A stretch of DNA of 64,000 nucleotides, from assembly GCA_017518185.1 (NCBI GenBank), contig JAFWWB010000049.1:1-64000 (forward strand). Direction: 5' to 3'. A program made the position numbers and the translations under genes. Each line of letters opens with the position of its first letter. The stretch's first letter is position 1. Origin of the DNA: Lachnospiraceae bacterium. GTDB taxonomy: Bacteria > Bacillota > Clostridia > Lachnospirales > Lachnospiraceae. This document shows positions 22,307 to 46,969 of the stretch, piece by piece. The notes beneath the pieces were generated by a model. That model was not told where the DNA came from and searched no databases. It saw nothing but the letters and a program-made list of their open reading frames with translations.

Positions 22307-22353
22307 ATTATGTAAATCTTACCATGCAGTTCACTATTCTTCAAGGATTTTGA

Positions 22354-22382
22354 TTGAAATATTATCTGTCGTATGTTACAAT
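22354..22382 (+). promoter_or_regulatory. Sigma-A promoter of the HDOD gene
   Basis: TTGAAA (22354-22359), 17 nt, TACAAT (22377-22382), 54 bases before the ATG. It lies in the divergent region shared with the potassium-channel gene. Confidence 0.75.
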
Positions 22383-22436
22383 ATTGGCGTTAATGTACGA
22401 ACTCAAGTACAAACCCGACATAAGAGGAGGAGCATC

Positions 22437-23663
22437 ATGTTAGCTACACTGATTCCCTTATTTGACCATAGTATGAGCGTATGTGCCTATTCGGTGTTTG
22501 CCCAGAAGGAGAATTTCCTCCTGAACCCCCGTTATCTCGGGGTAGGACGCTATGACGGAGCCGCAAATGTGGTCGGCTTCGAGCTCATCGAGAGCATGGG
22601 CCTTGAGACCGTGGCCGGGGATCAGATGGTGTTCATCGAGATGAATAACATCGCCCTCTTCTCCGATATAGCCGAGCAGTGCAATGCACCTCATGACAAG
22701 ACGGTGCTCCTGGTGGATCAGGAACTGCCTGCCGAGGGAAAGTACATCAACCGTCTGAAGGAGCTGAAGGCCGACAAGTACAAGCTGGCCATCACCAAGC
22801 TTCCGGTAAGCCGTTTTGAGGAATACCGTGAGGTTCTTTCCCTCATGGATTTCATAATGCTGAACCACAAGAAGATAGACATAAGCAAGGCAAAGGTCTA
22901 CTTCTCCAAGGTTTATCCGGGCGTCAAGCTCATAGCCATAAATGTAGACTCCCAGGAAGAGTACGACAGGCTCAAGGAAGGCGGCGGATATGACCTTTAC
23001 GAAGGCGAGTTCTTCCGTATGCCGGTCAAGAAGGGCACCGAGGAGCTGGCTCCCCTGAAGGTCAACTATCTGGAACTGCTGAAGGTGGTCAATGATATCG
23101 ACTTTGACCTTACGGATGCGGCATCAGTCATAGAGCGTGACCCCGCGCTTACGCTGTCCATGCTCAAGATGGTCAACCGCATGACCGTGAACTCCGGGAT
23201 CAATTCCGTCAAGCACGCTGCTGCGATGCTGGGACAGAGGGAACTGAAGCGCTGGATCAACACTGCAGCTACCAAGGAGCTCTGTGTTGACAGACCCAGC
23301 GAACTTATGCGCATATCCATGATAAGGGCGCGCTTCGCCGAGAATCTGGCTCCCGTCTTCAAGATGGCAAGCCAGTCCTCCGAGCTTTTCCTTATGGGAC
23401 TTTTCTCCGTACTGGACATCATAATCGAAAAGCCCATGGAAGAGGCGCTGGAAATGGTTCGTGTCTCCAGGGAGATCAGACAGGCTCTGCTGGAAAAGAC
23501 CGGTCCCTTCTGGCCGCTCTACGATTTCATGATACAGTATGAGCACGCTTCCTGGCAGGAGGTTTCCCGCCAGATGGTAGTGGGTGACATAGAGATGGAT
23601 CCCGTATATCAGGCATATGTGGATTCTCTCCGCTGGTTCAGGGATCTGTTCTCACAGGACTGA
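22437..23663 (+). CDS. Degenerate EAL plus HDOD signalling protein (YuxH-like)
   Basis: This 408-residue protein has an N-terminal EAL-like barrel (about 1-190) without the EAL, DDFG or other catalytic signatures. A C-terminal HDOD domain (about 200-400) includes DLTDAASVIERDPALTLSML and VKHAAAMLGQRELKRWI. This architecture matches the YuxH/CdgJ-type family of c-di-GMP-linked regulators, in which the EAL part usually does not hydrolyse c-di-GMP. CdgJ-type relatives influence motility. The start at 22437 follows a perfect AGGAGG and a consensus promoter, while upstream in-frame ATGs lack such a site. It is one of the few plus-strand genes and is monocistronic. Confidence 0.9.
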   Translation: MLATLIPLFDHSMSVCAYSVFAQKENFLLNPRYLGVGRYDGAANVVGFELIESMGLETVAGDQMVFIEMNNIALFSDIAEQCNAPHDKTVLLVDQELPAEGKYINRLKELKADKYKLAITKLPVSRFEEYREVLSLMDFIMLNHKKIDISKAKVYFSKVYPGVKLIAINVDSQEEYDRLKEGGGYDLYEGEFFRMPVKKGTEELAPLKVNYLELLKVVNDIDFDLTDAASVIERDPALTLSMLKMVNRMTVNSGINSVKHAAAMLGQRELKRWINTAATKELCVDRPSELMRISMIRARFAENLAPVFKMASQSSELFLMGLFSVLDIIIEKPMEEALEMVRVSREIRQALLEKTGPFWPLYDFMIQYEHASWQEVSRQMVVGDIEMDPVYQAYVDSLRWFRDLFSQD

Positions 23664-23786: not shown

Positions 23787-26700
23787 TTACAGCCATCTCA
23801 GCTTACCCTTGGTGATCCTGAAGGATCCGGAACAGCTTCCGTAGAATCCCGATGCGCTGCCGGTTCCCGTGATGACGTAGACCGCCTTGCCCACGTTCAC
23901 ATTGTTAAAGTAATGTACGGTGTAATTGGAGGTGCCGACGTACTTTCCGCCTACGGTCAGATTGAACCTGTTGCTTCCTCCCACGGTCACAGCGCTTCCG
24001 GTGTAAGCGAATTTGCTCACCTTCTTCTTTTTGCTGTCCACGATGCTGATCTTTGCCTTTTTATCTATGGCTCTGGATGCATCCACCTTTGTTATGGTAT
24101 AGCTTCCCGTGATCACACCATCGTAGTTGCCGTTACTCTTTGCGGTGATCTCTACGCTTACCGCAAGACCTTCCTCAGGTATATCGGCAGCCTTTAGTCT
24201 GGTCACATCCTTGCCGTTTGCCGCGGTCCACTTTACGGAGTACTCCTTTGCTCCGACAAGGGTATCGCCTGCTGCCACAAAGGGCGCTGAAGCATACTTG
24301 CCGTCTTTTACAAAAGCCATATCGGGGCAGAATACCGCAGTGCCCTCAAGCGGTGCCTTTGTCACATTGAATTCATATTTCTGTGCCTTTACACCCTTAT
24401 AGTTACCCATAAAGCTTACGGTGACCTTAGCTTTTGCTCCGGCTTTCTTATTGCTGCTGTACTTGAGCTTATAATCCTTTCCTTCCTTAAGCACCGTTTC
24501 GCCGTCCTTTACGGTAACGGAAGCCTTAGCGCCAGAAGGAGCATAGACTGCGCTCTTTGCACACTCAACCGTGGGTGCGGCAGAGCAGGCCTTTATGGTA
24601 TAGCTCTTCTTATAGCTCTTGCTGTAGCCTGCAAGGGGAACGATGACTATGTTCACCTTTCCGGCCGAAATGACATCATCGGGATAGAGCACCATGTAAG
24701 CTTCGTTCTCGCTGACAACCTTTCCGTCGGCTGTCACTACAAGCTCGCCTTCCTTAAGCTTCTGCTCCTCACCGTTGTAGACACGCTCTGCAGGCTTGAA
24801 GCTCTGGATCTTCAGTGCAACGGGCTCAGCCTTCTTTACAAGGAAGGTTCTGGTTCCCTTGAAGTTTTCCTTTCCTTCAACGACTATCTCTATGTTCTGT
24901 CCGTCTGCGGAATCAGTCTTACTCTTCACTTCAAAATCCTTTGAAGTCAGCTTGTAGCTTCCGAGATAGAATTCCGGCTTTACTTTGGACGCATTCGTTG
25001 CGGGAGCCGTGGCACTGGTAACATCATCCATGCTCCTGGCCACTATGCTGAATCCGGAGCTTGCGGTACCGCCCACGGTAATGCCCTTTACGGTCACAGT
25101 GGGCACCTTATTGCCATTCTTCACCTTTACGTTGTTGCTGTAGCTGACCTTGTAATCAACGGTCTCGATAAGCTCCTTACCGTTGTACATTACCCTGACG
25201 GGAGGCTGTATCTTTCCGCCGGTGAAGGCAAAGACGTTGCCCGCCGCAAATTCCACATAGAGGTCAGTTGCTACGGGATCCACCGGCTGCACTGAGGAAT
25301 CCGCCGCCGCAAAGTATCCGGTCCGGGTTTCGGTGTAGCCCATGCAGTCGCTCACGCGGCAGATGTATATGGTCTTGGGATCCAGATCCTTCATCTCCTT
25401 TGAAGAAAAATCATGGCTTCCGGAATCCTTCACGGTAAACTGCGAGACCAGTGTATAGCTGTCCGAATACTTATAGAAGCTGAAGGTATAAGGTGAGCGG
25501 CCATAGGTGTCACCGATGTATACCCGTGTATATGCCGTTCTGTCACCATCATTCTGAAAGTTGAAGTACCTGTTCCTTGAGGCCCACTTTCCGTACCTGT
25601 CATCCCTCTCTTTCTCTGAATAGTTAGCATCGTATGCGTAGTAGCTCTCGGTTCCGTTGCCGTGAAGCGCAGTCACGGAAGAACCTGCTGCGGTGACCCT
25701 GAAATAATAGCCTCTTTCGGAAGCGGAAAGACCGGTCACGCTGCAGTAAAGATAACCGTTGCTGTTCATATCGGTGAACTCATACTTTACACCGCTTACA
25801 GGCTTCAGATCCCAGGTATAGACCTCCAGTGCGATATCGTTTTCTTTAACGAATTTCTTTACATCCGTCTTATCTCCGGAATACATGGGGAACTCTGCCC
25901 CAAGGCTCGCCTTTCCCATATCCTTCATATCGTAACTTACATACTGATATGACTGCAGGAGTTTTACGTTTCTTACCAGTATGCTGCAGCTGCAGAGTAC
26001 CTTCTCGCTTCCGTCAAAAACCTCACAGACCTTTACCGTATAACTGCCGGGATCATTTATCACAAGATCCCAGTCTCCGGTTTCGAAGCTGTCGTAACCG
26101 TCATAGCTGCCGCTCTTTGTCATATTCTTACTCACGGTCTGGTCGCCGATGGCGATACGCGCGTAAAGTGCATCAGTACTGTGCCTGTCGGCGCCGCCTC
26201 TTGCCCCGACGCTGATCTTTACGTTTCCGCTGAGGTTATAGTAAGGCGATGCCCATGCGTAGAAATTGTAATCAGGCTCGTCGCTGCTGCTTTCGCTGTA
26301 GTTGTAATAGACCACCTCAAAGTCCGTATTGTGCATTTCATATACATCCCCGGTCACTTCATCCGTGATCTTAAACATCATGCGGGTACCCTTTCGGGGA
26401 ATATAGAGGCCGGCTGCATCCGTAAGACCCAGCCTGAGCACTCCTTCGCCGTCGATGATGCCGTTGCCGCTTATGTTCCATTCATCAGCCGTATTGGTCT
26501 TTGCCTTTACTGCAATGCCGTGGCCGGCCCTGTTCTTATCAAGACGGAATTCGAACTTGCCGGTCTTCCAGTTATAGACCTTGGAATATACATTCAGCTC
26601 GCCTTCGGAAACATAGCTTCCGTCGATGAGGAGTCTGCTGTCCAGCTCCATGGGGAAGGTATTGTTCACGTCGTCGGGATCGCCCTTCAGTACCAGGCTG

Positions 26701-29700
26701 TACTTCCCTTCCTCGTTTATGCTGCTCCAGTTTGACTTCTTTTTAAAGCGGATGTAATAGTAGTTTCCTCTGTCTGAACTGCTGCCGGTCTTTACAAGCT
26801 CACCGAACTCCGTGTAGATGGTTCCTTTCTCATCTTCTATCTGAAGCTTCGGATCCTTATCCAGATTATAGCCCCTGAGTGAGAAATAGATATCATCTCC
26901 GGTATTGTCATAGCCGTTGCCCACTGTGCTGCATTCGAAGATCACGGGACCGTCCGCAACCTTTACCGCCTTCTCAAGAACACTCTTTGAACCGTCGGGG
27001 AGTGTCAGCACCACGTCATAGTCTCCGTCCTCAAGTATCCTTCTGATGGGGATATTGATGTCGGCGCGGCCGTATTCATAGTTCCCCGGATTACTGAAAT
27101 AATGGCCCTTTATAACATTTTTGTAGAGCTCGGAGAATCTGTTGCTGGTGGAGATATTCTTACTGCCGTCCCCGCTCCAGACAACGCCGTTCTTCTGAAG
27201 GTTTGCGCTGACGGTTCCCTTCAGATCCGCAGATCCGGGAGTCCAGATCTGGACGCTGAGCGAATCCGCATCCCTGCTTATGTAAGGCTGAACAGTGATG
27301 CCTGTGCTGACCTCCTCGCATTTGAGATCAAAGCTGTACTCAAGGGTAGTGCCTTCCCCATCGCTTATCAGTACGGAAGCTTTGTATGTCTGACCTGCAG
27401 AAAGCCCGAGGATCTCTCCGAAATCCCCGCAGGTAAGTACCATTCCTCTGTTCCAGGTACTTGTTTCAGCCGCCTTTGTATAGGCCTCGCTCTTACCGCT
27501 GAGATTGACGCTCACGGTATATTTTCTTGCCTTCAGATCGTCTGTTTCAAGGCAGAAGGTAAAGCCTCCTTTCGTATCCCTGTAAACAGTTTCCGATACA
27601 TAGATATTTTCGGATCTGCGGGTATATTTGAAATCCGTCAGGGAAGAAGGGATCTTTGCGGAAGCTGCTGCCGTATCGCTTACAAGGTTTCCGGTAAGAT
27701 CCAGCTTCTCCAGGGCCGTGGCGGAAAGATCGGGTATAGTCTTGATATCGTTATACTGAAGGTCAAGGCTCTTAAGCTTCTTCATGCCTGCAAGGGGAGA
27801 CATATCACTTATGGCCTGATCCTTTATGGTCAGGGACTGGAGATTGGGAAGCTTCTCCGGTATATCTGCCAGTGAAGTGATAAAGCCCTGCTGGCCGCTG
27901 TAGCTGTAGTAGCTCAGATCCAGATTGGTCTCAAGCTCAAGCTGCGCATTGGTCATGTTGTAATACCTGTTCTTCAGCAGCTTATAGAGGACGGGATCAG
28001 TGAAATCCTCTTCCGTGTATGTCACGGTCTTAGCTGTACGGTAGCTTACAGGAGCCTCCTCCGAACCCAGGACATCCACGGCCCTATCCGTTAAGGAAGA
28101 GCCGAGCTGTATATAATACTCATACTCCGTGTCGTCATTCAGTCCTGAGATCTCCAGCCTGCTAAAGCTGCCGCTCTGTTTGCTTTCGTTCCAGCTGTAG
28201 CTAGAATACGTAGAGTGGTTGAACTTTTCTTCTCCCGCCTTTCTTAACTTAAGTATGAAGCGGGGGCTGTCGATCCTGTAGCTGGGATACGCGGATACGG
28301 TGTAGGCTATGCTTGTTATGCCGTTCTCGGAAACAAGAGTGACTTTTCGCTTACTCTGATCCTGTCTCTTTATTTCGATGGGTACGGTCACAACCTTCTT
28401 TTCCGCATCGGCGCCGACATATACCTCGTAAGCCAGGTAAAGTTCGTCATAACCTTCAGTGGAAAAGGTGATCACAATATTTCCATCCTTATCATATGAC
28501 TTGCTGCCTGCCTTTATGGAAACCTTGTTCTCGCTGCATATATAAATATCCCGTATCGTCTCGTTGCCGGGATTATCAAAGCTGACCTTCACGCTTTCGC
28601 CGATGTAGCCGTATTCCAGCACTTCGACCGATGCCGTTACCCTGCTCTCGGTCACTGCAGCCTTTGTGGTGAAGGTCCCTATATCCGATATGCGGAGATA
28701 CTTGTTGTTATTGAGTACCGCAACGCAGTATCTGTATTCGGTATCCGGCAGCAGCGGCGTACTTCCCGTGCCTATGGTACCGCTTATATCGGTATTGGTG
28801 GTCTGATAAGTTGAGGGGAACTGCCCTATCTTTTCATTCCTGAGGCCTTCAGCATCTTTGTTGATGATCACGTTGTTTCCCGAAAGCACATCATCCGATG
28901 CCTTGCCGTAGAAGCAGTAGACCTGTCCGTAGCGTATCCAGTAGTCACTGTACTGACTGTCCTTTTCTTCATCGTACTTAAGAGGCACCGTCAGTTCTGC
29001 CGAATAGCTGGATGCATTCAGCGAGACAGTAGTCCTGTACTGTTCAAGGGTGGTGAAGCTGTAAGTCTCCGTAAGGTAATGGAAATCCGTCGCATTGTTT
29101 CCGATCTTTCCGATAAAGCGGGCACTGTAGGCAGTTTCGGGCGCAAGATCGTTCAAAGTAAAATCCTGGTAGCTTGCATAATACGATCTTATGCCTTCGG
29201 GCAGAGCGTTGGGATCGGGGTTCTCGGGAAATACCGTATCATCCGCACCTTCCGTATATATCATATAGACCTTGCGTGAAGATGTATCATCCGCAGGCAC
29301 CCATTCATAGGTATATCTCACAGCAGCTTCCGCGACTTTGGGAGTGATCTCAACACCGGTTATCTTAAATCCTTCCTGTGTGGTGAACTCGAGGATACCT
29401 GTCTTGAAAACATATCTGGTGCCTTCAAGAACAGCCAGTCTGTACTGATATGTAGTAGAATGAGTAAGATTGGAAAGGTTTATCTGCTGTACACCTGCCC
29501 CCTGGAACTTTAGTCCCCTGTTACTCCTCTTGAATACGCTCAGGTCCGAATAAGAACCCTCGTCAGCTGTGGTCATCTCTCCATCGGTGTAGTAAACATA
29601 AACCTCTACACTCCGGTTTTCGGATACAAGGCCGCTGAGGGTTATTTCCACATCGGCTTTGAAAGCCTTGGGCACCACATTTGCGCTGAGGGTATAACCC

Positions 29701-30104
29701 TCACCTTCGCTGACAGGATCTTCTGTATCTATGATCTCCTCAGCCTCTTCGGACGCCTCTTCTTCGGAGTCTTCCTCTCCGGCAGACTCCTCTTCGAAAG
29801 CCTCTATAGCCTCTTCAGCTTCCTCAGCCTCAGCTGCCTCTTCTTCCTCTTCTGCAGCCTCTTCCTCTTCCTCATCGTAAGTATCGGCTTCTTCGCTTTC
29901 TCCGGAGTCTTCCTTATCGACGGATGCATCTTCGGATCCGGTGTTGTCCGCATCTTCCTCTTCGATGCCTTCTTCTTCAGCCGCATCGAAAGCCTCCGCC
30001 TCCTCTGCTGCCGGAGCTGCCATCGCCGTCATGGACCCGATCTCGGAAAAGATCATGGTAAAAGACAGCAATCCGCTCAGGATCCTGTAATACTTTCTTT
30101 TCAT
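23787..30104 (-). CDS. Giant secreted Ig-like/LRR surface protein
   Basis: This 2105-residue protein has an N-terminal signal peptide (KRKYYRILSGLLSFTMIFSE, probable cleavage near AMAA). A very acidic Glu/Asp/Ala region follows (about 30-140), then FN3/Ig-like beta domains (about 145-720). A short leucine-rich block (about 735-815, e.g. LKSLDLQYNDIKTIPDLS) is followed by further beta-sandwich domains (to about 1600). At least four Ig-like repeats with a DYKVSYSNN...G type pattern lie near the C-terminus. No LPXTG, SLH or cell-wall-binding motif is visible, so attachment is unclear. A substrate-binding or adhesion role is plausible but not shown. The last repeats resemble the partial gene at 63339-64000. 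Promoter and AAGGAGG are clear. Confidence 0.9.
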   Translation of the reverse strand: MKRKYYRILSGLLSFTMIFSEIGSMTAMAAPAAEEAEAFDAAEEEGIEEEDADNTGSEDASVDKEDSGESEEADTYDEEEEEAAEEEEEAAEAEEAEEAIEAFEEESAGEEDSEEEASEEAEEIIDTEDPVSEGEGYTLSANVVPKAFKADVEITLSGLVSENRSVEVYVYYTDGEMTTADEGSYSDLSVFKRSNRGLKFQGAGVQQINLSNLTHSTTYQYRLAVLEGTRYVFKTGILEFTTQEGFKITGVEITPKVAEAAVRYTYEWVPADDTSSRKVYMIYTEGADDTVFPENPDPNALPEGIRSYYASYQDFTLNDLAPETAYSARFIGKIGNNATDFHYLTETYSFTTLEQYRTTVSLNASSYSAELTVPLKYDEEKDSQYSDYWIRYGQVYCFYGKASDDVLSGNNVIINKDAEGLRNEKIGQFPSTYQTTNTDISGTIGTGSTPLLPDTEYRYCVAVLNNNKYLRISDIGTFTTKAAVTESRVTASVEVLEYGYIGESVKVSFDNPGNETIRDIYICSENKVSIKAGSKSYDKDGNIVITFSTEGYDELYLAYEVYVGADAEKKVVTVPIEIKRQDQSKRKVTLVSENGITSIAYTVSAYPSYRIDSPRFILKLRKAGEEKFNHSTYSSYSWNESKQSGSFSRLEISGLNDDTEYEYYIQLGSSLTDRAVDVLGSEEAPVSYRTAKTVTYTEEDFTDPVLYKLLKNRYYNMTNAQLELETNLDLSYYSYSGQQGFITSLADIPEKLPNLQSLTIKDQAISDMSPLAGMKKLKSLDLQYNDIKTIPDLSATALEKLDLTGNLVSDTAAASAKIPSSLTDFKYTRRSENIYVSETVYRDTKGGFTFCLETDDLKARKYTVSVNLSGKSEAYTKAAETSTWNRGMVLTCGDFGEILGLSAGQTYKASVLISDGEGTTLEYSFDLKCEEVSTGITVQPYISRDADSLSVQIWTPGSADLKGTVSANLQKNGVVWSGDGSKNISTSNRFSELYKNVIKGHYFSNPGNYEYGRADINIPIRRILEDGDYDVVLTLPDGSKSVLEKAVKVADGPVIFECSTVGNGYDNTGDDIYFSLRGYNLDKDPKLQIEDEKGTIYTEFGELVKTGSSSDRGNYYYIRFKKKSNWSSINEEGKYSLVLKGDPDDVNNTFPMELDSRLLIDGSYVSEGELNVYSKVYNWKTGKFEFRLDKNRAGHGIAVKAKTNTADEWNISGNGIIDGEGVLRLGLTDAAGLYIPRKGTRMMFKITDEVTGDVYEMHNTDFEVVYYNYSESSSDEPDYNFYAWASPYYNLSGNVKISVGARGGADRHSTDALYARIAIGDQTVSKNMTKSGSYDGYDSFETGDWDLVINDPGSYTVKVCEVFDGSEKVLCSCSILVRNVKLLQSYQYVSYDMKDMGKASLGAEFPMYSGDKTDVKKFVKENDIALEVYTWDLKPVSGVKYEFTDMNSNGYLYCSVTGLSASERGYYFRVTAAGSSVTALHGNGTESYYAYDANYSEKERDDRYGKWASRNRYFNFQNDGDRTAYTRVYIGDTYGRSPYTFSFYKYSDSYTLVSQFTVKDSGSHDFSSKEMKDLDPKTIYICRVSDCMGYTETRTGYFAAADSSVQPVDPVATDLYVEFAAGNVFAFTGGKIQPPVRVMYNGKELIETVDYKVSYSNNVKVKNGNKVPTVTVKGITVGGTASSGFSIVARSMDDVTSATAPATNASKVKPEFYLGSYKLTSKDFEVKSKTDSADGQNIEIVVEGKENFKGTRTFLVKKAEPVALKIQSFKPAERVYNGEEQKLKEGELVVTADGKVVSENEAYMVLYPDDVISAGKVNIVIVPLAGYSKSYKKSYTIKACSAAPTVECAKSAVYAPSGAKASVTVKDGETVLKEGKDYKLKYSSNKKAGAKAKVTVSFMGNYKGVKAQKYEFNVTKAPLEGTAVFCPDMAFVKDGKYASAPFVAAGDTLVGAKEYSVKWTAANGKDVTRLKAADIPEEGLAVSVEITAKSNGNYDGVITGSYTITKVDASRAIDKKAKISIVDSKKKKVSKFAYTGSAVTVGGSNRFNLTVGGKYVGTSNYTVHYFNNVNVGKAVYVITGTGSASGFYGSCSGSFRITKGKLRWL

Positions 30105-30181: not shown

Positions 30182-31942
30182 TTAATCGCTTAGTCTCTCT
30201 ATCTCTGCCTTCAGGGAATTAAGTTCCATCTCCTCAAGGGAAAGCTTCTTTTCGGGAATGATGGCGTCGTCCCTGTCGTTATCCTTAAGGAGCTCCAGGT
30301 TTATACGCCCTACGTAATTATAGAATATCTCCACATGCTGAATACGATTCTTTCCCTTCCCTGTAGGCTCGTGTATCACCACCTTCTGTATAAGGTCGTT
30401 GAGGATACGGTCGCTGACCTTTGTGAAATTCCCTTCGCTCTTTAAAATGCGGGCAAACTTCTCTGCGCCCTTACGCTGATCCCTTATCTCATCAGCCTGT
30501 ATCTTCAGGTATTTCACCTTCTGCTCCAGGTCCCGCTGCTCATCATCATAGTCACGCATCAGCTTCTGGAAGAGACGCTCCGAAATGCGGCCTCCGGAGC
30601 TGTCCTCATACAGCTTTTTGATCAGCTTATCCAGCTCTTCCACCCTGGTCTCCATCAGCTGCATCTCACCTCTGTTCTGCTTTGCATCCCTTTCCTGGTC
30701 TATGGAAGCCACGGAACGGACCAGCTTCAGGAACACCTCTTCCCGTCGTTTTATGAAATCCCTTATGTAATTAAGCTCCTCCGCTATCTGCTCTTCCACA
30801 ACGATGCTCCTTATGTAGTGCATGGTGCAGTCACCGTTGAAAACAGCGCTGCGGTAGCGGCTGCAGATGAAAGCGCTGTCCGCATTGTAGGTGCGTCCGC
30901 CAGCGCGGTGTGCCGAGTTGGGACTCCTGTAGGTCATGCGTTTGCCGCACTGTGCACAGAAGCAGAAGGATGAAAGGCGGTGGGACTTGTATTTCTTCGG
31001 TCCCGGAACTCTGGGGCGCCTGCCCTTCATGGTATTGTACTGGGCTATGTCCCAGGTGAGCTTATCCACCAGGGGCTCGTGGTTATCGTAAAAGATAAAC
31101 TGCTCTTCCTCCGGTATATATTTAACCTTCTTGGTCTTGAAATTCTCTATGGTGGTGCGGCCCATGATAAGATGCCCCAGGTATTCCTTTCTGGACAGTA
31201 TTGTGCGGACAGTTGAAGCTGTCCAGCCATACTCGTTTGCAAACTTATGGCGCACCGCTTCATCGGGCCTGTTCTTCTGGGCATATGCCGCAGGTATGAG
31301 CCAGCGTTCCTGTCTCATATAATAAGCGATGGAGGTAACACCCCTTCCGTTTCTCGCCATCTCGAAGACCCTGCGCACAGTTTTTGCCGCTTCCTCATCC
31401 ACCACAAAGGTCCTGGGATCCTTTTTATCAAGCTTATAGCCGAAGGGGGCCGTGTTTCCAACCCATCTGCCCTGTTCCATCTTTGTGCGGAGCATGGCAC
31501 GGATCTTCCGGCTGGTATCTTTTGCGTACCATTCGTTCATTATATTGATAAAGGGTGTCATCTCGTTTTCCGAGCCGTTCGCTGAGTCCACGGAATTGTT
31601 CACGGCTATGAAACGTACCCCGGCATCGGGGAACATTATCTCCGTAAAGTATCCCACCTGCAGATAGTTTCGGCCGAGGCGGCTTAAGTCCTTTACTACA
31701 AGGCATCCCACCTTCCCGGCCCTTATCTCTTCAAGGAGCTGGTTAAAGCCGGGGCGTTCAAAGCTTACGCCGCTGTAGCCGTCATCAGTAAAATGGCGGA
31801 ACTCTCCCAGATGGTTACGCATGGCGTAATCCTCAAGGAAGATCTTCTGGTTGATGATAGAGTTGCTCTCGCCGACCTGTTCATCATCTCTGGAAAGCCG
31901 CTCATACAATGCTGTGTACTTCTGTTCCCTTGATCTGCCCAT
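30182..31942 (-). CDS. Large serine recombinase
   Basis: This 586-residue protein is of the TndX/phage-integrase type. It has a resolvase catalytic domain (about 1-155; nucleophile Ser17 in YERLSRDDEQ, and the KDLSRLGRNY motif with the conserved Arg). A recombinase domain (about 165-270) precedes a zinc ribbon (CAQCGKRM...CSRY, about 340-385) and a coiled-coil (about 400-520). The start at 31942 follows AGGAGG, and 26 extra upstream residues are not supported. No partner genes of an element are seen around it: sufD lies 139 bp upstream and the giant surface gene 77 bp downstream. It may be the relic of a phage or transposon, or may act on a local site. Confidence 0.92.
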   Translation of the reverse strand: MGRSREQKYTALYERLSRDDEQVGESNSIINQKIFLEDYAMRNHLGEFRHFTDDGYSGVSFERPGFNQLLEEIRAGKVGCLVVKDLSRLGRNYLQVGYFTEIMFPDAGVRFIAVNNSVDSANGSENEMTPFINIMNEWYAKDTSRKIRAMLRTKMEQGRWVGNTAPFGYKLDKKDPRTFVVDEEAAKTVRRVFEMARNGRGVTSIAYYMRQERWLIPAAYAQKNRPDEAVRHKFANEYGWTASTVRTILSRKEYLGHLIMGRTTIENFKTKKVKYIPEEEQFIFYDNHEPLVDKLTWDIAQYNTMKGRRPRVPGPKKYKSHRLSSFCFCAQCGKRMTYRSPNSAHRAGGRTYNADSAFICSRYRSAVFNGDCTMHYIRSIVVEEQIAEELNYIRDFIKRREEVFLKLVRSVASIDQERDAKQNRGEMQLMETRVEELDKLIKKLYEDSSGGRISERLFQKLMRDYDDEQRDLEQKVKYLKIQADEIRDQRKGAEKFARILKSEGNFTKVSDRILNDLIQKVVIHEPTGKGKNRIQHVEIFYNYVGRINLELLKDNDRDDAIIPEKKLSLEEMELNSLKAEIERLSD

Positions 31943-32081
31943 AATCCATACCTCCTGTTTTAGAGTAAAAATGTCCCAAGCCGCGTGTATCACCCGGCCG
32001 GGGACATAACAATGTATCATTCTGATTATGGACTATAACTCAGATAAGAGCTAAAGAAAGGGATCGGTTTGACCCCGGAAG

Positions 32082-34544: not shown

Positions 34545-35279
34545 TCATGCACCAAGATACTTCGCATAGCCGCCGGCGTTTATCTCCTCCACGAGGGTGC
34601 CGTCGCCGCTGTGTACGATACGGCCGTCCACAAGCACGTGGGTGCGGTCGATATCCAGATCATCAAGTATACGGGTGGAATGGGTGATTATGAGAAGGGT
34701 ACCGCCGTTCTCCTTGAATAGGCGTATGCCCTTTGACACCGTGCGCACCGCATCCACATCGAGACCGGAATCGGTCTCGTCAAGTATCGCCAGCTTGGGC
34801 TCCAGCAGGAGCAGCTGGAATATCTCGGCCTTTTTCTTCTCACCGCCGGAAAAGCCTGTATTCAGATCTCTTTCGGCAAAGGCCATATCCATATCGAGAA
34901 GAGCTGCCGTCTCCTCCATCTTCTTTCTGAAGGCGAAAACCTTTACGGGCTTTCCGCTCTTCTCCCTTATGGCGCTTCTGAGGAAAGCTTCAAGCGTAAG
35001 CCCCGGCACCTCCAGAGGATTCTGGAAGGAAAGGAAGATACCTTTCTTTGCACGCTCGTTCACGGCTACGCCCAGCAGACTCTCTCCTTCAAATTCAAGA
35101 CTGCCCTCCGTCACCTTATAAGCAGGGCTTCCCATGATAACATTTCCAAGGGTTGATTTTCCGGCTCCGTTGGGGCCCATGAGCACATGGGTCTCTCCGG
35201 CGTTCATGGAAAGATCCAGCCCCTTCAGGATCTCTCCCTCTTCTGTTCCGGCTCTCAGGCCTTTTATATCAAGTATCAT
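34545..35279 (-). CDS. sufC: SufC Fe-S assembly ATPase
   Basis: This 244-residue ABC-type ATPase drives conformational change in SufBD. It has Walker A MGPNGAGKSTLGNVIMG (about 36), Q-loop LSFQNPLEVPG, signature FSGGEKKKAEI (about 143), Walker B LAILDETDSGLDVDAV (about 168) and the switch His in LLIITHSTR. It is the first gene of the operon, with GGGAGG before the ATG and a consensus promoter bearing a palindrome. sufS and sufU are not in the operon here. Confidence 0.96.
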   Translation of the reverse strand: MILDIKGLRAGTEEGEILKGLDLSMNAGETHVLMGPNGAGKSTLGNVIMGSPAYKVTEGSLEFEGESLLGVAVNERAKKGIFLSFQNPLEVPGLTLEAFLRSAIREKSGKPVKVFAFRKKMEETAALLDMDMAFAERDLNTGFSGGEKKKAEIFQLLLLEPKLAILDETDSGLDVDAVRTVSKGIRLFKENGGTLLIITHSTRILDDLDIDRTHVLVDGRIVHSGDGTLVEEINAGGYAKYLGA

Positions 35280-40249: not shown

Positions 40250-41941
40250 TTATTTGGAACCCAGTATATCCCTCACCCAATCAAAAGAATTGGGATCATT
40301 GCTGAACTCGCCCACATCCAGCGGACCTCCGCTCTGGAAATAGCAGGGCGTCCAGACAACGGCATCCACGCCGTCAGGTATGGTATAGGTGCGCACCCTG
40401 TCATTGGTATATATGCTGCAGCGCACGGTCTTGCCCATCTCTGAGCTGGTGCCTCCCAGCGAAGTAGTATAAGAATCCAGAACGTAAAGGGTCTGGGCCT
40501 TATTCCAGTTGATATCCCTTATCTGGAAGAGCTCGTATCCTTTCAAACCGTTGTTATCGGCATAGAGGAAGTTACCCCTCTTGTCGATACCGTTGGCGTT
40601 GTTCACATAAACCCTGTCTCCCGAGTTGAAGAGGCAGATATCCAGATCCAGATCCTGGTTATCCCATTCCACCAGCACCAGTGCGCCGGAATCCTCGGTA
40701 GGAAGGGGAACCATGCGTTCCTCCACGTTCATGTCTCCGTTGACGGTGACATTCTGGACTTCTTCGAACATGCCATCGGCGCGGAATACCACGGTGTAGT
40801 CTCCCAGCTCCAGCTGCGGCACCTTTGCCCAGCCGGTCTCGCCGCTTGCAGTGATAACATCGGGAGTACCCCCGGCATTGTCATGTCCCTTTATAAAGCT
40901 TATGCTCACATTTCTTGCGGAATAGCCCTCATTGGTGGCTTCCACGTACACGATCACATCCGCCGCGACTCTCTCAAGAGGCTGGTGTATGCTGCCTCCG
41001 GGGAAGCTCTCGTCGATGGTGACTTCTCCGGTATAGTTCGCAAACTTGTCCGCCGTAACAAGATAGGAATAGGTTCCCTCTTCCAGATCCTTGAAGGTGG
41101 CCTTTCCGTCTGCCGCCGTCACCACACTGCCTATCTCTGTTGCGCCGTTATAGAGCACGACATTAACAGCCTCGGCGTTGTTGCCTTCACTATCCTCAAA
41201 GTAGATGGTCAGATCGCCTCTTACGGGTTCGGGTTCGGGCTCTGGCTGCTTATTCTCTTCTTCCTTATCCTTGTCCTTATCGACGTCCTCTTCCTTTTCC
41301 TTTGAGGCTTTTTTATTATCCTCTTTGTCAACTCCATCGGATCCCGAACCGGGAAGGATGAAGATGACCACTACCACTATGATAGCCACCAGAAGCACAG
41401 CCGCTATTATTATGAAAGGAAGTGCGGAACCCTTCTTGGGCGGACGCTGGCCACCGTTTGCCTGAGGCGGGGGCGCAACCCGGTTCCCGCCATTTACCGG
41501 CGGCGGGGGCGGCACCTGGTTCCCGCTGTTCACCTGGGGCGGGGGCGGCACCTGGTTCCCGCTGTTCACCGGCGGCGGAGGCGGCACCTGATTCCCTCCG
41601 TTCACCGGGGGCGGAGGCGGTACCTGGTTCCCGCTGTTCACCGGCGGCGGGGGCGGTACGCTTCCCATCAGCATCATGGTCTTGTCAGGATCCCCGTATG
41701 CAGGCTTTTTGTCACCCGGCATGAATATCTTCGTCTTCTCCTCCTGAGCAGGAACCGGGGGCGGAGGCGGTACCTGGTTCCCGGCATTTACCGGCGGCGG
41801 GGGCGGTACCTGGTTTCCGGCATTTACCGGCGGCGGGGGCGGCGTCTGCGCGCCGGGGGCCACCATCTTGACAGGGTGTCCGCATTTCGAACAGAACCTT
41901 ACTCCTTCTTTTATCACATTACCGCATTCAGAACAGAACAT
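40250..41941 (-). CDS. Zinc-ribbon, proline-repeat membrane protein with CnaB-like domains
   Basis: This 563-residue protein begins with a zinc ribbon (MFCSECGNVI...FCSKCGHP). A proline repeat follows (about 30-165): seven full 12-residue units of the form PPPPPVNxGNQV, in blocks of two and five, separated by a segment with KTKIFMPGDKKPAYGDPDK. Next come one membrane helix (about 177-198), a Lys/Glu-rich linker (about 205-240), and two beta domains of CnaB/carboxypeptidase-regulatory type (about 243-420). The C-terminal domain (about 425-560) contains LVEWDNQDLDLDICLF. The DLDL-type motif recalls TerD-like or calcium-binding proteins, but this is not firm. Function is unknown. The topology suggests an intracellular proline arm and an outside sensory or adhesive part. 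Confidence 0.85.
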   Translation of the reverse strand: MFCSECGNVIKEGVRFCSKCGHPVKMVAPGAQTPPPPPVNAGNQVPPPPPVNAGNQVPPPPPVPAQEEKTKIFMPGDKKPAYGDPDKTMMLMGSVPPPPPVNSGNQVPPPPPVNGGNQVPPPPPVNSGNQVPPPPQVNSGNQVPPPPPVNGGNRVAPPPQANGGQRPPKKGSALPFIIIAAVLLVAIIVVVVIFILPGSGSDGVDKEDNKKASKEKEEDVDKDKDKEEENKQPEPEPEPVRGDLTIYFEDSEGNNAEAVNVVLYNGATEIGSVVTAADGKATFKDLEEGTYSYLVTADKFANYTGEVTIDESFPGGSIHQPLERVAADVIVYVEATNEGYSARNVSISFIKGHDNAGGTPDVITASGETGWAKVPQLELGDYTVVFRADGMFEEVQNVTVNGDMNVEERMVPLPTEDSGALVLVEWDNQDLDLDICLFNSGDRVYVNNANGIDKRGNFLYADNNGLKGYELFQIRDINWNKAQTLYVLDSYTTSLGGTSSEMGKTVRCSIYTNDRVRTYTIPDGVDAVVWTPCYFQSGGPLDVGEFSNDPNSFDWVRDILGSK

Positions 41942-41957: not shown

Positions 41958-43022
41958 TTAATGCTGTCTTATCAATTTATCATTACCGTCTTTCTTTGTC
42001 AAACTCCGGGCAGCCTTCTCTATCAGTTCAAACAGGTACGCTGCCGCAAGTGACAGACCGGCGATCACAAGGTAATAAACGACCGGGACCGTATGCGCCG
42101 TCAGAAACTCAAAGCATCTCATCCAGACTGCTCCGTGAACCAGCCAGATATAAGTGGAGTGCTTTCCGAAATAATCCGCTGCTGCCAGGAAGGGCTTTAT
42201 TACCCTCATAAGCCTCACAAGTCCCCATATCAGTACCGGCACCAGCACTATATCCTGCTTTGCCTCCGAGGGCGTTGCAGTGAAGAGGTACCTGACCGCC
42301 ACTACAATGATGACGGCAAAGAGCCCGGCGGCCCCGAATATCAGCCTCACTCTCTTTTCCTCCTCCGGCTTACGGTCTTTCCTCTTCTTTACTGTATCCT
42401 GAAGAAATGCCGCAAGGTATCCCTCGCCGAAGATGATAAGGAAGATAAGCTCTACCTTCTCATGTATAAAATCAAGTACCGGCCTGAGGCCCGGTATGAA
42501 CAGGAGCGCAGCCGCTGCCGCTGCCAGGATAATACCCACTGCCGCAAGTATAAGGCGGTTCTTCTTATCTCCACGGAAGAACACCGCCATGAAAGGTGCC
42601 GCGATGAGCATGCAGGCATATTCCCTGACATACCACCAGGTATTATTATAGGTAGGGTCGGTGGCCAGCAGGTTTCCCGGCAGCTCCGCCCACTTTATCT
42701 CCTCGCCGAGCATAAGGGCCGGAAGGATTATCGAAAGAGCCATCGCCAGCCAGAGCCGGATATAAAGCCTCAGTATCCGAATGATCACCGGCTTTATGCC
42801 GGCTGCAAAGGAAGCCTTATCCTTAAGCAGGTGGAATATGCCCACACCGCTGACAAAGGAGAACATACCCACGCACATGCGCCCGCACCAGGCCAGCTGC
42901 TGTGTCCGTTCCGGAAAAGCAAGGAACCCTTCCGGGAACATCCACGCATACAAAAAAAAATGATGAAACATCATCATGAGCACGGCGATCCCCTGTACCG
43001 CAGAGCTTTCCCGCCTGCTCAT
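41958..43022 (-). CDS. Acyltransferase 3 family membrane protein
   Basis: This 354-residue protein with about ten membrane helices begins with the family pattern RRESSAVQGIAVLMMMFHHFF, which holds the catalytic-type His. NNTWWYVREYACMLIAAPF and STYIWLVHGAVWM near the end are also typical. Such proteins O-acetylate or otherwise acylate surface sugars. The ATG overlaps the EAL gene's stop by four bases. A basic C-terminal tail follows the last helix. Confidence 0.88.
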   Translation of the reverse strand: MSRRESSAVQGIAVLMMMFHHFFLYAWMFPEGFLAFPERTQQLAWCGRMCVGMFSFVSGVGIFHLLKDKASFAAGIKPVIIRILRLYIRLWLAMALSIILPALMLGEEIKWAELPGNLLATDPTYNNTWWYVREYACMLIAAPFMAVFFRGDKKNRLILAAVGIILAAAAAALLFIPGLRPVLDFIHEKVELIFLIIFGEGYLAAFLQDTVKKRKDRKPEEEKRVRLIFGAAGLFAVIIVVAVRYLFTATPSEAKQDIVLVPVLIWGLVRLMRVIKPFLAAADYFGKHSTYIWLVHGAVWMRCFEFLTAHTVPVVYYLVIAGLSLAAAYLFELIEKAARSLTKKDGNDKLIRQH

Positions 43023-44953
43023 GCCACTGTCCCATAAACAGGACTCTTCAGCCGTTCCTCGTAATCCTTCTTCGGAAGGGGTCTGTCATACAGAAAGCCC
43101 TGTCCGATAAAGCAGCCCACGCCCTTCAGAAAGTCCACCTGTTCCCGGGTTTCTACGCCTTCGCAGATGACTGAACGGTTGAGATCCTTTATCATCTGTA
43201 CCACATTTGCGATCAGCCTGGAGGTAAGATCGTTACTTCTTTCCAGACCTGTAAGGAAGGAGCGGTCCAGCTTGACCACATCCGCGTCCACATCCTTCAG
43301 CATCGAAAGTGAAGAGTAGCCGGTCCCGAAATCATCTATGGAAATACTTATCCCCTCCGACCTCATCCTTGCCACGAAGCTCTCAAGCGCCTCCGGATCC
43401 TCATAACCCGAAGACTCCGTAAGCTCCACTTCGATATACTTTCCGTCAACACCGTAGCGTTTTATGATATTCAACACCTTGTCAGCGAAGCCCTCGTCCC
43501 GCAGATGGAGCTTGGAAAAATTTGAGGAGGTCTTCACAGGCTTCATTCCGGCATCCAGCCAGCCCTTTATATCCCTGCAGACATGCTCCAGAACGTAATA
43601 ATCGAGCTGTACTATCCTGCCTTCTTCTTCCAGTATGGGTATGAAATCCATGGGAGGCACCACTTTTCCGTCCCTTATCCAGCGCACCAGAGCCTCGCTC
43701 CCGCAGAGGGTGTTGCTCCGCATATCAACCTTAGGCTGATAATATACCTGAAAATCCTCTTTGTTCAGGGCAGCGGTATAGCGGTTCAGCACCTCACGGC
43801 GCTCCAGTATCTTACCCTGCATATCCTGCAGGAACCACATCTGATCCGCCATGTTGTTCTTTCTTGCCTCGGCAAGGGCCATAACACAGGCCTCTACTAT
43901 ACTGCTGACAGTATCATCATCCCTGGCATCATATATGCCGCAGCGGCTGTCCAGCCTGTGCTTTTCTTCCACACCGGGCAGCACCACTTCCACGTTCTTC
44001 AGCTTGCCGAGAAAGTCCCTGACATTATCCTTCTTTATGAGCAGTATATAATTGTCGGCGCCGTTCCTGGCCGCTATCTCCCCGGGTGAAAGGGCAGCGG
44101 TAAGTATGCCGGCAAACTGCTGGAGAACACTGTCTCCGGCTTTTGATCCGTATTCCTGGTTTATGAAACGGAAATTCCTTATGCTTACGGCCACGCCGGA
44201 GTACTGTCCTATGCGGCCGTTCTTCTCCAGGCCTTCGCCGTATTTTTTGAAACGGTCCACATTTGCCATGCCGGTGAGAAGGTCGGTGCCCGCCGCATCC
44301 TCTGATATCCTGGTACAGAGTATCACACTGGCTGCCGCAGCGGCTATCATCACTGCAAGTATTGCCACCGACTCCCTGTTGTTTGCCCGTGTTCTCTCTT
44401 CTATCTTATTCCTTGCAGCTTCCATATCGCCTTCGAGGATCTGATCCAGACGGTCCATGCTGTCATCAACCCCGGATATGTACTCCTTCAGGCTGCTGTT
44501 CATATAATAGGAAGCTGTAGCGGTCTCCCCTTTTCTGCTGAAGCTCAGGATCACCTCAACATTTTTGAAATACCCGATAAGTCCGCCGTAGATCTCATGA
44601 TAATAGCTCTCGTATTCACTGTTTTTCATGCTTTCGCCAAAGGACGCCAGCTGCTCCCTGATGCGGCCCTCTATCTCCGAAGCGCTCTCTTCAAGGCGCG
44701 GGCGCGATTCCGGATCCTCTGCCAGAAGATGCGAAAATACCAGCATCTGGTGCTCACACATCAGATGGCTTATCTGATGCATACATCTGACATTTGCATA
44801 GTCCTCGTCTATGACCGAAAGATACGATTTACTTATGGCCTGGGTATTGAACCTGAGCTTAAAAAGCCCGGCAACGCAAAGAAGAGCCGAGAGAAGCGTT
44901 ATGACTGCCACACGAAGTGACATCTGTTTTTTTCTGTTCTGAAAGTTCTTCAA
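43019..44953 (-). CDS. Membrane c-di-GMP phosphodiesterase (degenerate GGDEF, intact EAL)
   Basis: This 644-residue protein has an N-terminal membrane helix, an extracytoplasmic four-helix sensor region (about 35-190) and a second membrane helix (about 192-212). Its GGDEF domain has NGADN in place of GGDEF, so it is probably inactive as a cyclase. The EAL domain keeps EALVRW, the Asn in NFSKLHL, the Glu in IEVELTESS, DDFGTGYSSL, the Lys in VVKLDRSF and CEGVETREQ, as in active phosphodiesterases. It should lower c-di-GMP on a signal sensed outside the cell. It overlaps the solute-binding lipoprotein gene by four bases, hinting at a ligand-sensing pair. Confidence 0.93.
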   Translation of the reverse strand: MKNFQNRKKQMSLRVAVITLLSALLCVAGLFKLRFNTQAISKSYLSVIDEDYANVRCMHQISHLMCEHQMLVFSHLLAEDPESRPRLEESASEIEGRIREQLASFGESMKNSEYESYYHEIYGGLIGYFKNVEVILSFSRKGETATASYYMNSSLKEYISGVDDSMDRLDQILEGDMEAARNKIEERTRANNRESVAILAVMIAAAAASVILCTRISEDAAGTDLLTGMANVDRFKKYGEGLEKNGRIGQYSGVAVSIRNFRFINQEYGSKAGDSVLQQFAGILTAALSPGEIAARNGADNYILLIKKDNVRDFLGKLKNVEVVLPGVEEKHRLDSRCGIYDARDDDTVSSIVEACVMALAEARKNNMADQMWFLQDMQGKILERREVLNRYTAALNKEDFQVYYQPKVDMRSNTLCGSEALVRWIRDGKVVPPMDFIPILEEEGRIVQLDYYVLEHVCRDIKGWLDAGMKPVKTSSNFSKLHLRDEGFADKVLNIIKRYGVDGKYIEVELTESSGYEDPEALESFVARMRSEGISISIDDFGTGYSSLSMLKDVDADVVKLDRSFLTGLERSNDLTSRLIANVVQMIKDLNRSVICEGVETREQVDFLKGVGCFIGQGFLYDRPLPKKDYEERLKSPVYGTVA

Positions 44954-46194
44954 TCCTGTTTTTCCGTTATCCCTGCCGTCATCTCATCAAGCAGTTCCTG
45001 GAGATCCCTTCCATCGGCATTTCCGCCGGAGATGGTGATCCCGAATATCTGTGAAGCGCTCCAGAAGGGATCCGCCACATTCTGCGCATAACCGAACTCC
45101 GACTGCTCTGTCAGTGCCGCCACCGCAGGCGCCGCCTGTACCTCTTCACGCTGCGCTGCATTCAGGTTGACCGGACAGTCCCCTATCTTTTTGAAACGCT
45201 TAAGCTGGGCCTCTTCCGAAGTGAGATACTCTGCCGCCTTTACCGCCCATTCCGGAGAAGATGTATTGGCATTTACCCCCATGAGCTTGTAGCCCATGAA
45301 GCTGGCCATCTGTACCTCGTCTCCGTTAATGGTACAGACAGGAAGTTTTGCGGCCGAATAGGCCCTTCCCCAGGCTGATGATACTTTTTCCGCATTCCAG
45401 GCCCCGTTTATGCCGGCAATGACTTCACCGGATGCCACGGCCTCCTGGAAGCCCTCGTCGCCCAGATCCTTAAAGCCCGGATCCGTGGCCATCTTAAGCA
45501 TGCACTCAGTCACCATGACGCCTGTATAAGGCATATCCGTGCTGTTCCAGTTGCATATGTTGCAGTCTTCTTCAGGGGATCTCTCCATCGTCAGACCGGC
45601 CCCTTTAAAGAAGGAATAGATATACCAGCCGCTGCCCAGATCCATGGTGAAATACTTACCGTTATCCCGGGCCACCTCAAGTATCCGGTCCAGACTCTTA
45701 ACATCCTCTTCCGTAAGATAATCGCGGTTATAATACAGAAAATATCCGTTGCCGGCACTCATGGGGCAGGCCATAAGCTTTCCGTCCCTCATGGCAACCC
45801 GCGCCGCTCCGGAATCAGGACCGCCTACACTGTCGATGATGGCGTCTTTATCTTCGCTTATCTCCAGTAAGGCTCCGGCCATATACAGCTCCTGCAGCTG
45901 GTCATCCGGAAAACAGAAGATGTCCGCCGCAGCCTTCGGATCCGCCAGCACCGTGGTCTTGCAGGTATCCTCTTCCTCTACGCTGACGGTATATTCCAGC
46001 TTCACCTCATCCTTGTGAAGCTGTTTGAATTCTTCCATGGATTCAATGACCAGCCCCCGGCTCGCGCCGGAAGCCCAGACCGAAAGCTTTACCTCCGGAA
46101 GCTCTGCCTCTGTCTCCTTCCCGTTCCCGCATCCGGCAAGAACGAGGATAGAGGCTGCAGCCAGCAGTTCTATAAATCTTTTACGCAAGCTCAT
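44950..46194 (-). CDS. Extracellular solute-binding lipoprotein
   Basis: This 414-residue protein has a lipoprotein signal (ELLAAASILVLAGC, Cys near residue 22) and a family 1 (maltose-type) binding-protein fold. Typical motifs include KLSVWASG, AAADIFCFPDDQLQELYMAGALLEI and AVKAAEYLTSEEAQ near the end. It would bind a carbohydrate or similar ligand outside the membrane. No ABC permease or ATPase gene is nearby. Its stop overlaps the ATG of the EAL phosphodiesterase, and it may serve as the sensor subunit rather than in import. Confidence 0.9.
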   Translation of the reverse strand: MSLRKRFIELLAAASILVLAGCGNGKETEAELPEVKLSVWASGASRGLVIESMEEFKQLHKDEVKLEYTVSVEEEDTCKTTVLADPKAAADIFCFPDDQLQELYMAGALLEISEDKDAIIDSVGGPDSGAARVAMRDGKLMACPMSAGNGYFLYYNRDYLTEEDVKSLDRILEVARDNGKYFTMDLGSGWYIYSFFKGAGLTMERSPEEDCNICNWNSTDMPYTGVMVTECMLKMATDPGFKDLGDEGFQEAVASGEVIAGINGAWNAEKVSSAWGRAYSAAKLPVCTINGDEVQMASFMGYKLMGVNANTSSPEWAVKAAEYLTSEEAQLKRFKKIGDCPVNLNAAQREEVQAAPAVAALTEQSEFGYAQNVADPFWSASQIFGITISGGNADGRDLQELLDEMTAGITEKQD

Positions 46195-46969
46195 CCCTGT
46201 CCCTCCTGTGTGAGAACAGCCATTTCCACATCTCCATGTCCTTTCCGGCCGGCACCCAGCTGCAATGGGCGTGAAGACCGTAACGGCGCATCATTTCTCC
46301 GGGTTCAAAAGAAGTGAGATGTATATCCTCTGCCCCGAGAGCCTTAAGTCTTTCATACAATGCCGCGGATCCCAGATATTCCTCTTTCCACATTCCTCTG
46401 TGTATGCCGCTGTTCACTATCATATCGTCATCGGCATGGTATAGCCAGAGAGGGATTTTCTTAAGCTCCTCCAGCCCTTCGGTCCCTGTGGAACCGCAGA
46501 TAAGGACCGCGGCGGCGTAAAACCCCGGATATTTCTTCAGAAGCTCGAATGCCCCTATGGCACCCGCGCTGTAACCGTATATATAGATCCTGTCCCTGTC
46601 GGCATTTTCATGTCTGCGGAGATGATCCCCTACCAGGGACTGCAGCCACCGGCCCGTATTCCCGGCAGCCCAGTGCGTTCCGTTGTCATACTGGGGCGCC
46701 AGGATATGGCAGGGTTCTTTCTTCTGCCATGCCGGATCCGCGAATATCGTACCGATATCATGCATGGAAAGCTGCTGCAGATTATCCCTGCCGGTGACAT
46801 CCGCGCCATGGAGAAAAAGCACCACCGGCACCTTTTCACCTGTCTTTGCCTCAAAATACCTGTAGGGCATTTCTATGCCGTTAAACTCATAAGAAGCAGC
46901 TTCAAAGCTCCTGCAGCGCACTGCGTTCTCCGCCGATGGCTTGTCCCAGTCTTTGATGCCGCTCCACAT
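46181..46969 (-). CDS. Alpha/beta-hydrolase (esterase, phospholipase/carboxylesterase-like)
   Basis: This 262-residue protein has the oxyanion strand VPVVLFLHGADVTGRDN, nucleophile elbow YIYGYSAGAIGAFE (Ser about 145), acid loop YHADDDMIV (about 195) and the His near GLHAHCSW (about 238). No signal peptide is seen, so it is cytoplasmic. It resembles the esterase D/peptidase-like hydrolases. Its substrate is unknown. It lies four bases from the aminotransferase gene and overlaps the binding protein by 14. Confidence 0.85.
   Translation of the reverse strand: MWSGIKDWDKPSAENAVRCRSFEAASYEFNGIEMPYRYFEAKTGEKVPVVLFLHGADVTGRDNLQQLSMHDIGTIFADPAWQKKEPCHILAPQYDNGTHWAAGNTGRWLQSLVGDHLRRHENADRDRIYIYGYSAGAIGAFELLKKYPGFYAAAVLICGSTGTEGLEELKKIPLWLYHADDDMIVNSGIHRGMWKEEYLGSAALYERLKALGAEDIHLTSFEPGEMMRRYGLHAHCSWVPAGKDMEMWKWLFSHRRDRDELA

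Follow-up and report, generated by a model that had tools for sequence, protein, structure and literature searches.

A solute-binding lipoprotein and a membrane-bound c-di-GMP phosphodiesterase, encoded by overlapping genes in a Lachnospiraceae bacterium, very probably form a two-part sugar receptor, in which the solute-binding protein (SBP) and the four-helix-bundle (4HB) portion of its partner would control an EAL phosphodiesterase. The pair is one member of a larger family, and we consider it likely that this family arose in the Clostridia through a single recruitment of a galactan-importer SBP as a dedicated lipoprotein co-receptor, with the 4HB partner serving as a common front end behind which at least five outputs (MCP, HD-GYP, EAL, GGDEF and hybrid histidine kinase) have been exchanged. 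The genes lie in a 64,000-nucleotide stretch of DNA (GenBank assembly GCA_017518185.1, contig JAFWWB010000049.1, positions 1 to 64,000), termed here the window. A preliminary description of this DNA had already read the two genes as a two-part receptor; genomic context supports that reading well and extends it more widely than supposed, to a clade with several outputs in which 125 of 135 SBPs are encoded next to a signaling protein. The relevant features of the window are the following:

46181-46969, minus strand: alpha/beta hydrolase (esterase-like), upstream of the SBP gene and overlapping it by 14 bases
44950-46194, minus strand: solute-binding lipoprotein, a receptor-clade SBP of 414 aa, of the maltodextrin/galacto-oligosaccharide type (PF13416, E 1.3e-29)
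46129-46131, minus strand: lipobox cysteine C22 (LAGC) of the SBP, invariant in 66/66 aligned SBPs
44950-44953, minus strand: four-base stop/start overlap TTGA between the SBP and phosphodiesterase genes, with the TTG start on the TGA stop
43019-44953, minus strand: predicted membrane c-di-GMP phosphodiesterase of 644 aa, composed of a 4HB sensor, a degenerate GGDEF domain and an EAL domain
44309-44953, minus strand: N-terminal four-helix-bundle sensor (PF12729), residues 1-215, with two membrane-spanning ends, the spans being read from sequence
43856-44290, minus strand: degenerate GGDEF domain, residues 222-366, its site RNGADN (residues 296-301) lying inside 44048-44071
43079-43780, minus strand: EAL domain, residues 392-625 (E 8.2e-60), with EALVRW at 43679-43696, DDFGTGYS at 43313-43336, CEGVE and QGFLYDRP
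41958-43022, minus strand: acyltransferase-3, downstream of the phosphodiesterase gene and overlapping it by four bases (ATGA)

By Pfam and fold comparison, the window SBP has the two-lobe, MBP-like fold of the maltodextrin-binding proteins (PF13416/PF01547), and the solved structures closest to it (4UA8, MalE1) are binders of maltotriose or maltodextrin. Its partner carries the periplasm-like sensor domain that the preliminary description had reported: residues 17-171 match 4HB_MCP_1 (PF12729, E 3.8e-8), an extracytoplasmic domain of a type that accepts SBPs, and the modeled sensor is all-helical, with four long helices at residues 2-77, 83-109, 115-140 and 144-221. A fold search with the whole phosphodiesterase model covered residues 222-641 only, so that the 4HB part fell outside it. 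Within the covered part, the EAL region can be aligned with that of MorA (4RNH). All seven EAL motif patterns tried on the window protein are present, and nine catalytic-motif columns are the same as the window's in 17/17 full-length EAL partners, window included (two text patterns for these motifs were too strict and missed four and five rows). The EAL residues are therefore intact, as had been claimed, and with its EAL fold the protein qualifies, on sequence evidence, as an EAL-type c-di-GMP phosphodiesterase. The GGDEF site likewise departs from the consensus as described earlier (NGADN in place of GGDEF); neither the window protein (RNGADN) nor its 17 EAL relatives (GGDN, GGDK or GGDQ) have an intact GG[D/E]EF active site, and the domain is best explained as a regulatory or spacer element rather than a cyclase.

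The four-base overlap of the two genes, also part of the preliminary description, hinges on the TTG start, an in-frame ATG lying ten codons further on. Among the 17 EAL relatives, as judged from longest ORFs, the SBP/partner genes overlap or touch in 6/17 and are separated by gaps of 1-120 bases in 11/17. Neither the acyltransferase-3 nor the esterase-like ORF was found beside the two same-genus EAL pairs (in genomes G013 and G023), and since the acyltransferase-3 is missing beside both, it probably lies outside the receptor. The pairs of the genus were sought in a sample of 35 genomes, of which 15 yielded matches in the SBP search (E up to 1e-20) and six (G000, G013, G023, G026, G017 and G008) hold a receptor-type SBP as judged by neighborhood, the remaining matches being of importer type or undecided. 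The distribution of the pair is patchy, none being seen in 29/35 genomes, 8 of which are <90% complete. The partner in G013 and G023 is an EAL protein whose orthology to that of the window covers almost the full length (SBP 57% and phosphodiesterase 52-54% identity). The G017 and G008 partners instead combine 4HB and HD-GYP domains in one protein, and G026 has the same combination divided between two overlapping ORFs. The G013 pair is flanked by CorA upstream and, after the phosphodiesterase gene, by a metal-type ABC ATPase and permease downstream (locus L012), and the G023 pair adjoins a radical-SAM gene and a DUF402 gene; because the adjoining genes differ among the window, G013 and G023, the pair itself is the conserved unit. 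Conservation of the pair, proposed earlier as a check, thus extends to two more genus genomes in its EAL form and to three with HD-GYP, and such pairs are widespread in the Lachnospiraceae and Oscillospiraceae. A broader proposition, that SBPs of this kind accompany the majority of the genus's GGDEF-EAL proteins, was rejected: no such SBP was found in L013-L030, the EAL proteins of L014-L030 (about 35-40% identical) align over the GGDEF-EAL part only, and those of L013-L015 and L020 begin with other N-terminal regions. Another GGDEF-EAL match, at G000:C66:24192-25430, is in a frame that would be open but for a single internal TAG.

Beyond the genus, six receptor SBPs served as queries against genome contigs and brought out 386 relatives; the 80 best of these were taken as named loci, and more were added from family and order searches (best matches only) and from 40 regions chosen by hand from the match table. 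All loci were ranked by likeness to the six receptor SBPs and some species may appear twice, so the fractions given here are no census. Neighbors were classed by phmmer likeness to a few reference proteins, and a Pfam check on samples confirmed the output types. In a first set of 117 SBPs (11 duplicate loci skipped), the nearest classified same-strand neighbor within 900 bases was HD-GYP in 44, EAL in 18, MCP in 18, a permease in 15, GGDEF in 6, a histidine kinase in 3 and none in 13. With the window excluded, the partner lies downstream of the SBP in 81/88 and upstream in the six GGDEF cases and one MCP row (L070), where it is the nearest classed neighbor. A 4HB domain was detected in the same ORF in 84/89 classified partners; in L031, L108, L141 and L070 a 4HB-bearing ORF is adjacent as well, and L138 is without one. 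At L031 6761-8069, and also in L108 and L141, the 4HB and HD-GYP parts occupy two overlapping or abutting ORFs, which may represent a real split or an assembly error. The single-ORF HD-GYP partners have HD[IV]GK in 41/41 and the HHExWxGxGYP pattern in 34/41, and all six GGDEF-class partners read GSDEF. The same type of SBP and sensor is found in front of both EAL and HD-GYP, two c-di-GMP phosphodiesterase folds that are unrelated to each other.

A second set of 174 SBPs was used for a tree rooted on ten remote importer SBPs. Three SBPs were left out of both trees (L043, L044 and L114, the last a split gene from Ruminococcus; fragments or split genes), and L042 (a long branch with no classified neighbor), identical proteins and proteins <330 aa were left out of the second. 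The receptor clade (SH-aLRT 98) holds 135/174 SBPs, of which 125 are signal-adjacent, one of them (L163) counted by a cut-off 4HB stretch only, and 10 are unclassified, whereas 38/39 SBPs outside it adjoin an ABC permease, one is unclassified and none is signal-adjacent. Across species, therefore, the SBP gene is linked to a transmembrane receptor gene more often than by chance, given that 125/135 receptor-clade SBPs are so placed. Parsimony on the rooted tree requires one transporter-to-signal change and five changes for the six neighbor states, the minimum possible, each output (EAL, HD-GYP, GGDEF, histidine kinase, MCP) being gained once, by subclade. One subclade of 53 SBPs (support 100) comprises 51 that are MCP-linked and two cut-off loci (L068, L163), and another of 82 (support 99) is linked to c-di-GMP enzymes and kinases, with the EAL group forming a branch inside the HD-GYP-linked SBPs. 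All ten MCP-subclade partners scanned match 4HB_MCP_1, and nine also match TarH (E up to 0.001), with six of these exceeding Pfam's TarH cut-off. From the rooted tree, the clean separation of the two classes and the minimal number of changes, we infer that an SBP was recruited from transport once, and that outputs were then exchanged while the type of sensor stayed the same. Those SBPs of the receptor clade that are unclassified, ten in all, consist of L046 (Hpt-adjacent), L068 (near a contig end) and eight from Oscillospiraceae/Ruminococcus (L106, L111, L115-L117, L121, L122 and L135), the last with no classified partner within 3.5 kb, although several of these stretches are short and L116 ends just past the SBP. 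These eight are nested inside the EAL branch; loss or relocation of the partner, or a position past the end of the sequence examined, may account for them. Next to L106, the other strand encodes a second SBP (PF01547) and a membrane protein without a Pfam match. At L098 3165-6221 (the same place as L046), an Hpt gene and a divergent response-regulator-GGDEF gene precede a receptor-clade SBP, replacing the usual 4HB partner. Named isolates in the class include Lachnospiraceae bacterium 10-1, P6B14 and Ruminococcus flavefaciens SAb67.

Pairwise distances among SBPs and among their sensors are correlated, both in 41 HD-GYP pairs (r 0.86, with 0/2000 permutations as high) and in 18 EAL pairs (r 0.85), and the SBP-sensor correlation across EAL and HD-GYP rows is 0.51. 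Given the output domain, the SBP-sensor partial r is 0.42 for HD-GYP and 0.65 for EAL pairs; given the sensor, the SBP-output partial r is 0.55 and 0.05, respectively. The correlation partly reflects shared ancestry, since in HD-GYP pairs the SBP-HD partial value (0.55) exceeds that for SBP and sensor (0.42); it shows that the two proteins are inherited together and gives no more than a hint of contact between them.

These features are consistent with a mechanism in which the lipoprotein SBP binds an oligosaccharide on the outer side of the membrane, a beta-1,4-galacto-oligosaccharide being the likeliest kind, and, once loaded, would dock on the extracellular four-helix bundle of its membrane partner. 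Docking may then shift the partner's transmembrane helices and thereby alter how active its EAL phosphodiesterase is in the cytoplasm; the availability of sugar would in this way govern the c-di-GMP level. By its sequence, the receptor SBP descends from the SBP of a galactan importer of the GanSPQ type, probably through one recruitment event, after which the output of the 4HB partner was swapped several times. Because hydrolyzing outputs were kept across the exchange between EAL and HD-GYP, we favor a ligand effect of the same sign on both kinds of phosphodiesterase, possibly a rise in activity and not a fall. In the window bacterium, whose genome yields 8 MCP and 3 PilZ matches and whose window contains two flagellar rod-type genes, c-di-GMP plausibly sets motility against attachment.

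The nature of the ligand is the part of this scheme on which alternatives weigh most. A beta-1,4-galacto-oligosaccharide is our best guess, held with modest confidence and drawn from ancestry alone, because the nearest transporter relatives adjoin GH53 galactanases. GH53-like ORFs occur in 5/5 wide-flank importer loci near the receptor clade (L182-L186), Pfam confirming GH53 in L182, L183 and L185 and GH42 in L182; generally, the near transporter loci have GH53, plus GH42 or GH2 in some. It is possible, if less probable, that the receptor works as proposed on another sugar, such as maltodextrin or another plant or host oligosaccharide, as the maltotriose- or maltodextrin-bound nature of the closest solved structures would suggest; against this stand the galactan linkage of the nearest importer relatives on the tree, with GH53-like ORFs in all five of the above loci, and the importer locus of the window genome itself. 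That locus, situated elsewhere in the genome, encodes a whole galactan importer and comprises LacI, two permeases, a GH53 galactanase, GH2 and its own SBP, the last being the closest paralogue of the receptor SBP in the genome (41% identity, the SBP loci L002-L010 having been compared with the reference proteins of the window and the galactan locus only). Across 71 enzyme-linked receptors, 18 MCP-linked receptors and 14 importers, 47 SBP positions, 13 of them aromatic, are >=90% identical, a figure for conservation in the alignment. Only Y287, and that weakly, separates receptor from importer SBPs at the thresholds used, and therefore no conserved docking patch is visible on the receptor SBPs.

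The paralogous importer and the many positions shared by receptor and importer SBPs, aromatic ones included, raise the question of whether the window SBP is instead a second feeder for the importer's GanPQ permease, its adjacency to the phosphodiesterase being incidental. We regard this as highly improbable: the importer has an SBP of its own, and genomes G026, G017 and G008 bear the pair without a recognizable GanP orthologue, their best matches having 22-30% identity at E of about 1e-6 to 1e-7 (G017 and G008 being 72% and 82% complete). Feeding of GanPQ is made unlikely by these three genomes, and receptor signaling seems not to need the galactan permease. Nor was an importer-type permease seen within 1.2 kb of the receptor-clade SBP in any of 134 loci. 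A profile built from the importer permeases, with many of the importer loci among its own seeds, matches 38/38 importer loci versus 2/134 receptor loci, the two being L145 994-2836 (two permeases on the same strand, 2.2-3.0 kb upstream of the SBP) and L200 348-2261 (two permeases on the opposite strand, at a distance of 1.3-2.3 kb). Receptor-locus flanks have a median of about 3.5 kb on each side, the upstream flank being shorter than 1 kb in 12 loci and the downstream flank in 4, and the search was limited to importer-type permeases, so linked importer permeases are excluded at close range only. In the window, as the preliminary description had stated, no permease is found among the 41 proteins scanned, which include the main ORFs from 30 to 56 kb; the ABC-type ATPases among them are a SufC-like protein (34545-35279) and UvrA. 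The linked permease genes expected of a CUT1 ABC importer SBP are thus lacking both among these 41 proteins and within 1.2 kb in the 134 related receptor loci. Both conditions that had been named earlier as counting against the receptor therefore turned out in its favor: the pair is conserved, and the transporter present elsewhere is a paralogous system with its own SBP. It is also doubtful in the extreme that the sensor acts alone on another cue while the SBP merely happens to share a transcript with it among a series of overlapping genes. The esterase and acyltransferase genes on both sides do overlap the pair, and eight related SBPs have no classified partner; however, in the two same-genus EAL loci the neighbors differ while SBP and sensor stay together, and nearly all receptor-clade SBPs (125/135) adjoin a signaling protein.

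The two-part receptor that we prefer is of a kind already known by analogy from NspS-MbaA, Tar-MBP and XylFII-LytS. In NspS-MbaA the genes are linked, NspS is not known to have an uptake role, and both the SBP family and the sensor domain are other than those of the window pair; E. coli MBP also serves the maltose importer, XylFII belongs to a different SBP family from the window SBP, and the periplasmic domain of LuxQ is tandem-PAS. An analogy with chemosensory or Lux-type systems had been drawn earlier. LuxP-LuxQ also pairs a binding protein with a membrane sensor, but the window sensor is an all-helical four-helix bundle with no tandem-PAS, and the comparison with LuxPQ is rejected; because the bundle is Tar-like, the pair stands closer to Tar-MBP, XylFII-LytS and NspS-MbaA. 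As far as the accessible parts of the cited papers go, SBPs that stimulate chemoreceptors, kinases and c-di-GMP enzymes form an accepted class (PMC9602780), and NspS-MbaA of Vibrio cholerae and Sinorhizobium, like the window pair, joins a periplasmic binding protein to a transmembrane c-di-GMP-modulating receptor (PMC8967002, PMC5646818, PMC9993111), although its ligand is a polyamine and its hosts are Gram-negative, whereas the window combines a sugar-type lipoprotein SBP with a 4HB sensor. Tar-MBP of E. coli maltose chemotaxis shares with this family an MBP-fold sugar SBP that interacts with a 4HB/TarH sensor, and XylFII-LytS of Clostridium beijerinckii, whose complex is solved, a sugar-sensing SBP on a 4HB sensor (both in the available text of PMC9769921); unlike MBP, the window SBP looks dedicated, and its output is an EAL phosphodiesterase, where XylFII-LytS has a xylose ligand and a histidine kinase (PMC9769921). 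CuaD-CuaS-CuaR of Ruminiclostridium cellulolyticum, also among the closest models, resembles the window in having a signaling-dedicated lipoprotein SBP apart from the importer's own, but it responds to cellobiose through a sensor ectodomain without a predicted domain and a histidine kinase, and the DNA-binding domain of its regulator is of the AraC type (PMC10384115, in the portion available). In the accessible portion of a review of c-di-GMP sensing, 4HB_MCP_1 is treated for the Wsp system, only SBP_bac_3 among the PBP-clan domains is said to have been studied, and sugar input to c-di-GMP enzymes is described only via the PTS (PMC8846402). A literature search, largely of papers outside subscription and seen in part, returned no description of SBP/4HB pairs with HD-GYP or of this family. 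The apparent novelty lies in an SBP family of Gram-positive bacteria that is devoted to signaling and whose outputs are interchangeable.

This one gene pair offers a candidate ligand (plant galactan fragments), a receptor and an output. In general, c-di-GMP enzymes have few recognized external signals, fewest of all in Gram-positive gut bacteria. The family illustrates clearly how a component of a nutrient importer can become a sensor, and its natural output swaps are material for learning how a 4HB domain drives unrelated enzymes. If the scheme is true, related gut bacteria would read the same class of plant-polymer fragment through different intracellular languages, and c-di-GMP breakdown would be coupled to it through two unrelated enzyme folds.

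Several other genes of the window deserve mention in their own right. A CdaA-type diadenylate cyclase (7052-7960) followed by a YbbR protein (5755-7137) would serve c-di-AMP synthesis. Of two plus-strand ORFs scanned, the one with a domain match encodes an HDOD-domain protein (22245-23663). A protein of 2105 residues with only a weak leucine-rich-repeat match (23787-30104) adjoins a large serine recombinase (30182-32020), and the product of 40250-41941 combines a zinc ribbon, a long PPPPPVN proline-rich repeat stretch, a transmembrane helix and carboxypeptidase-regulatory-like repeats.
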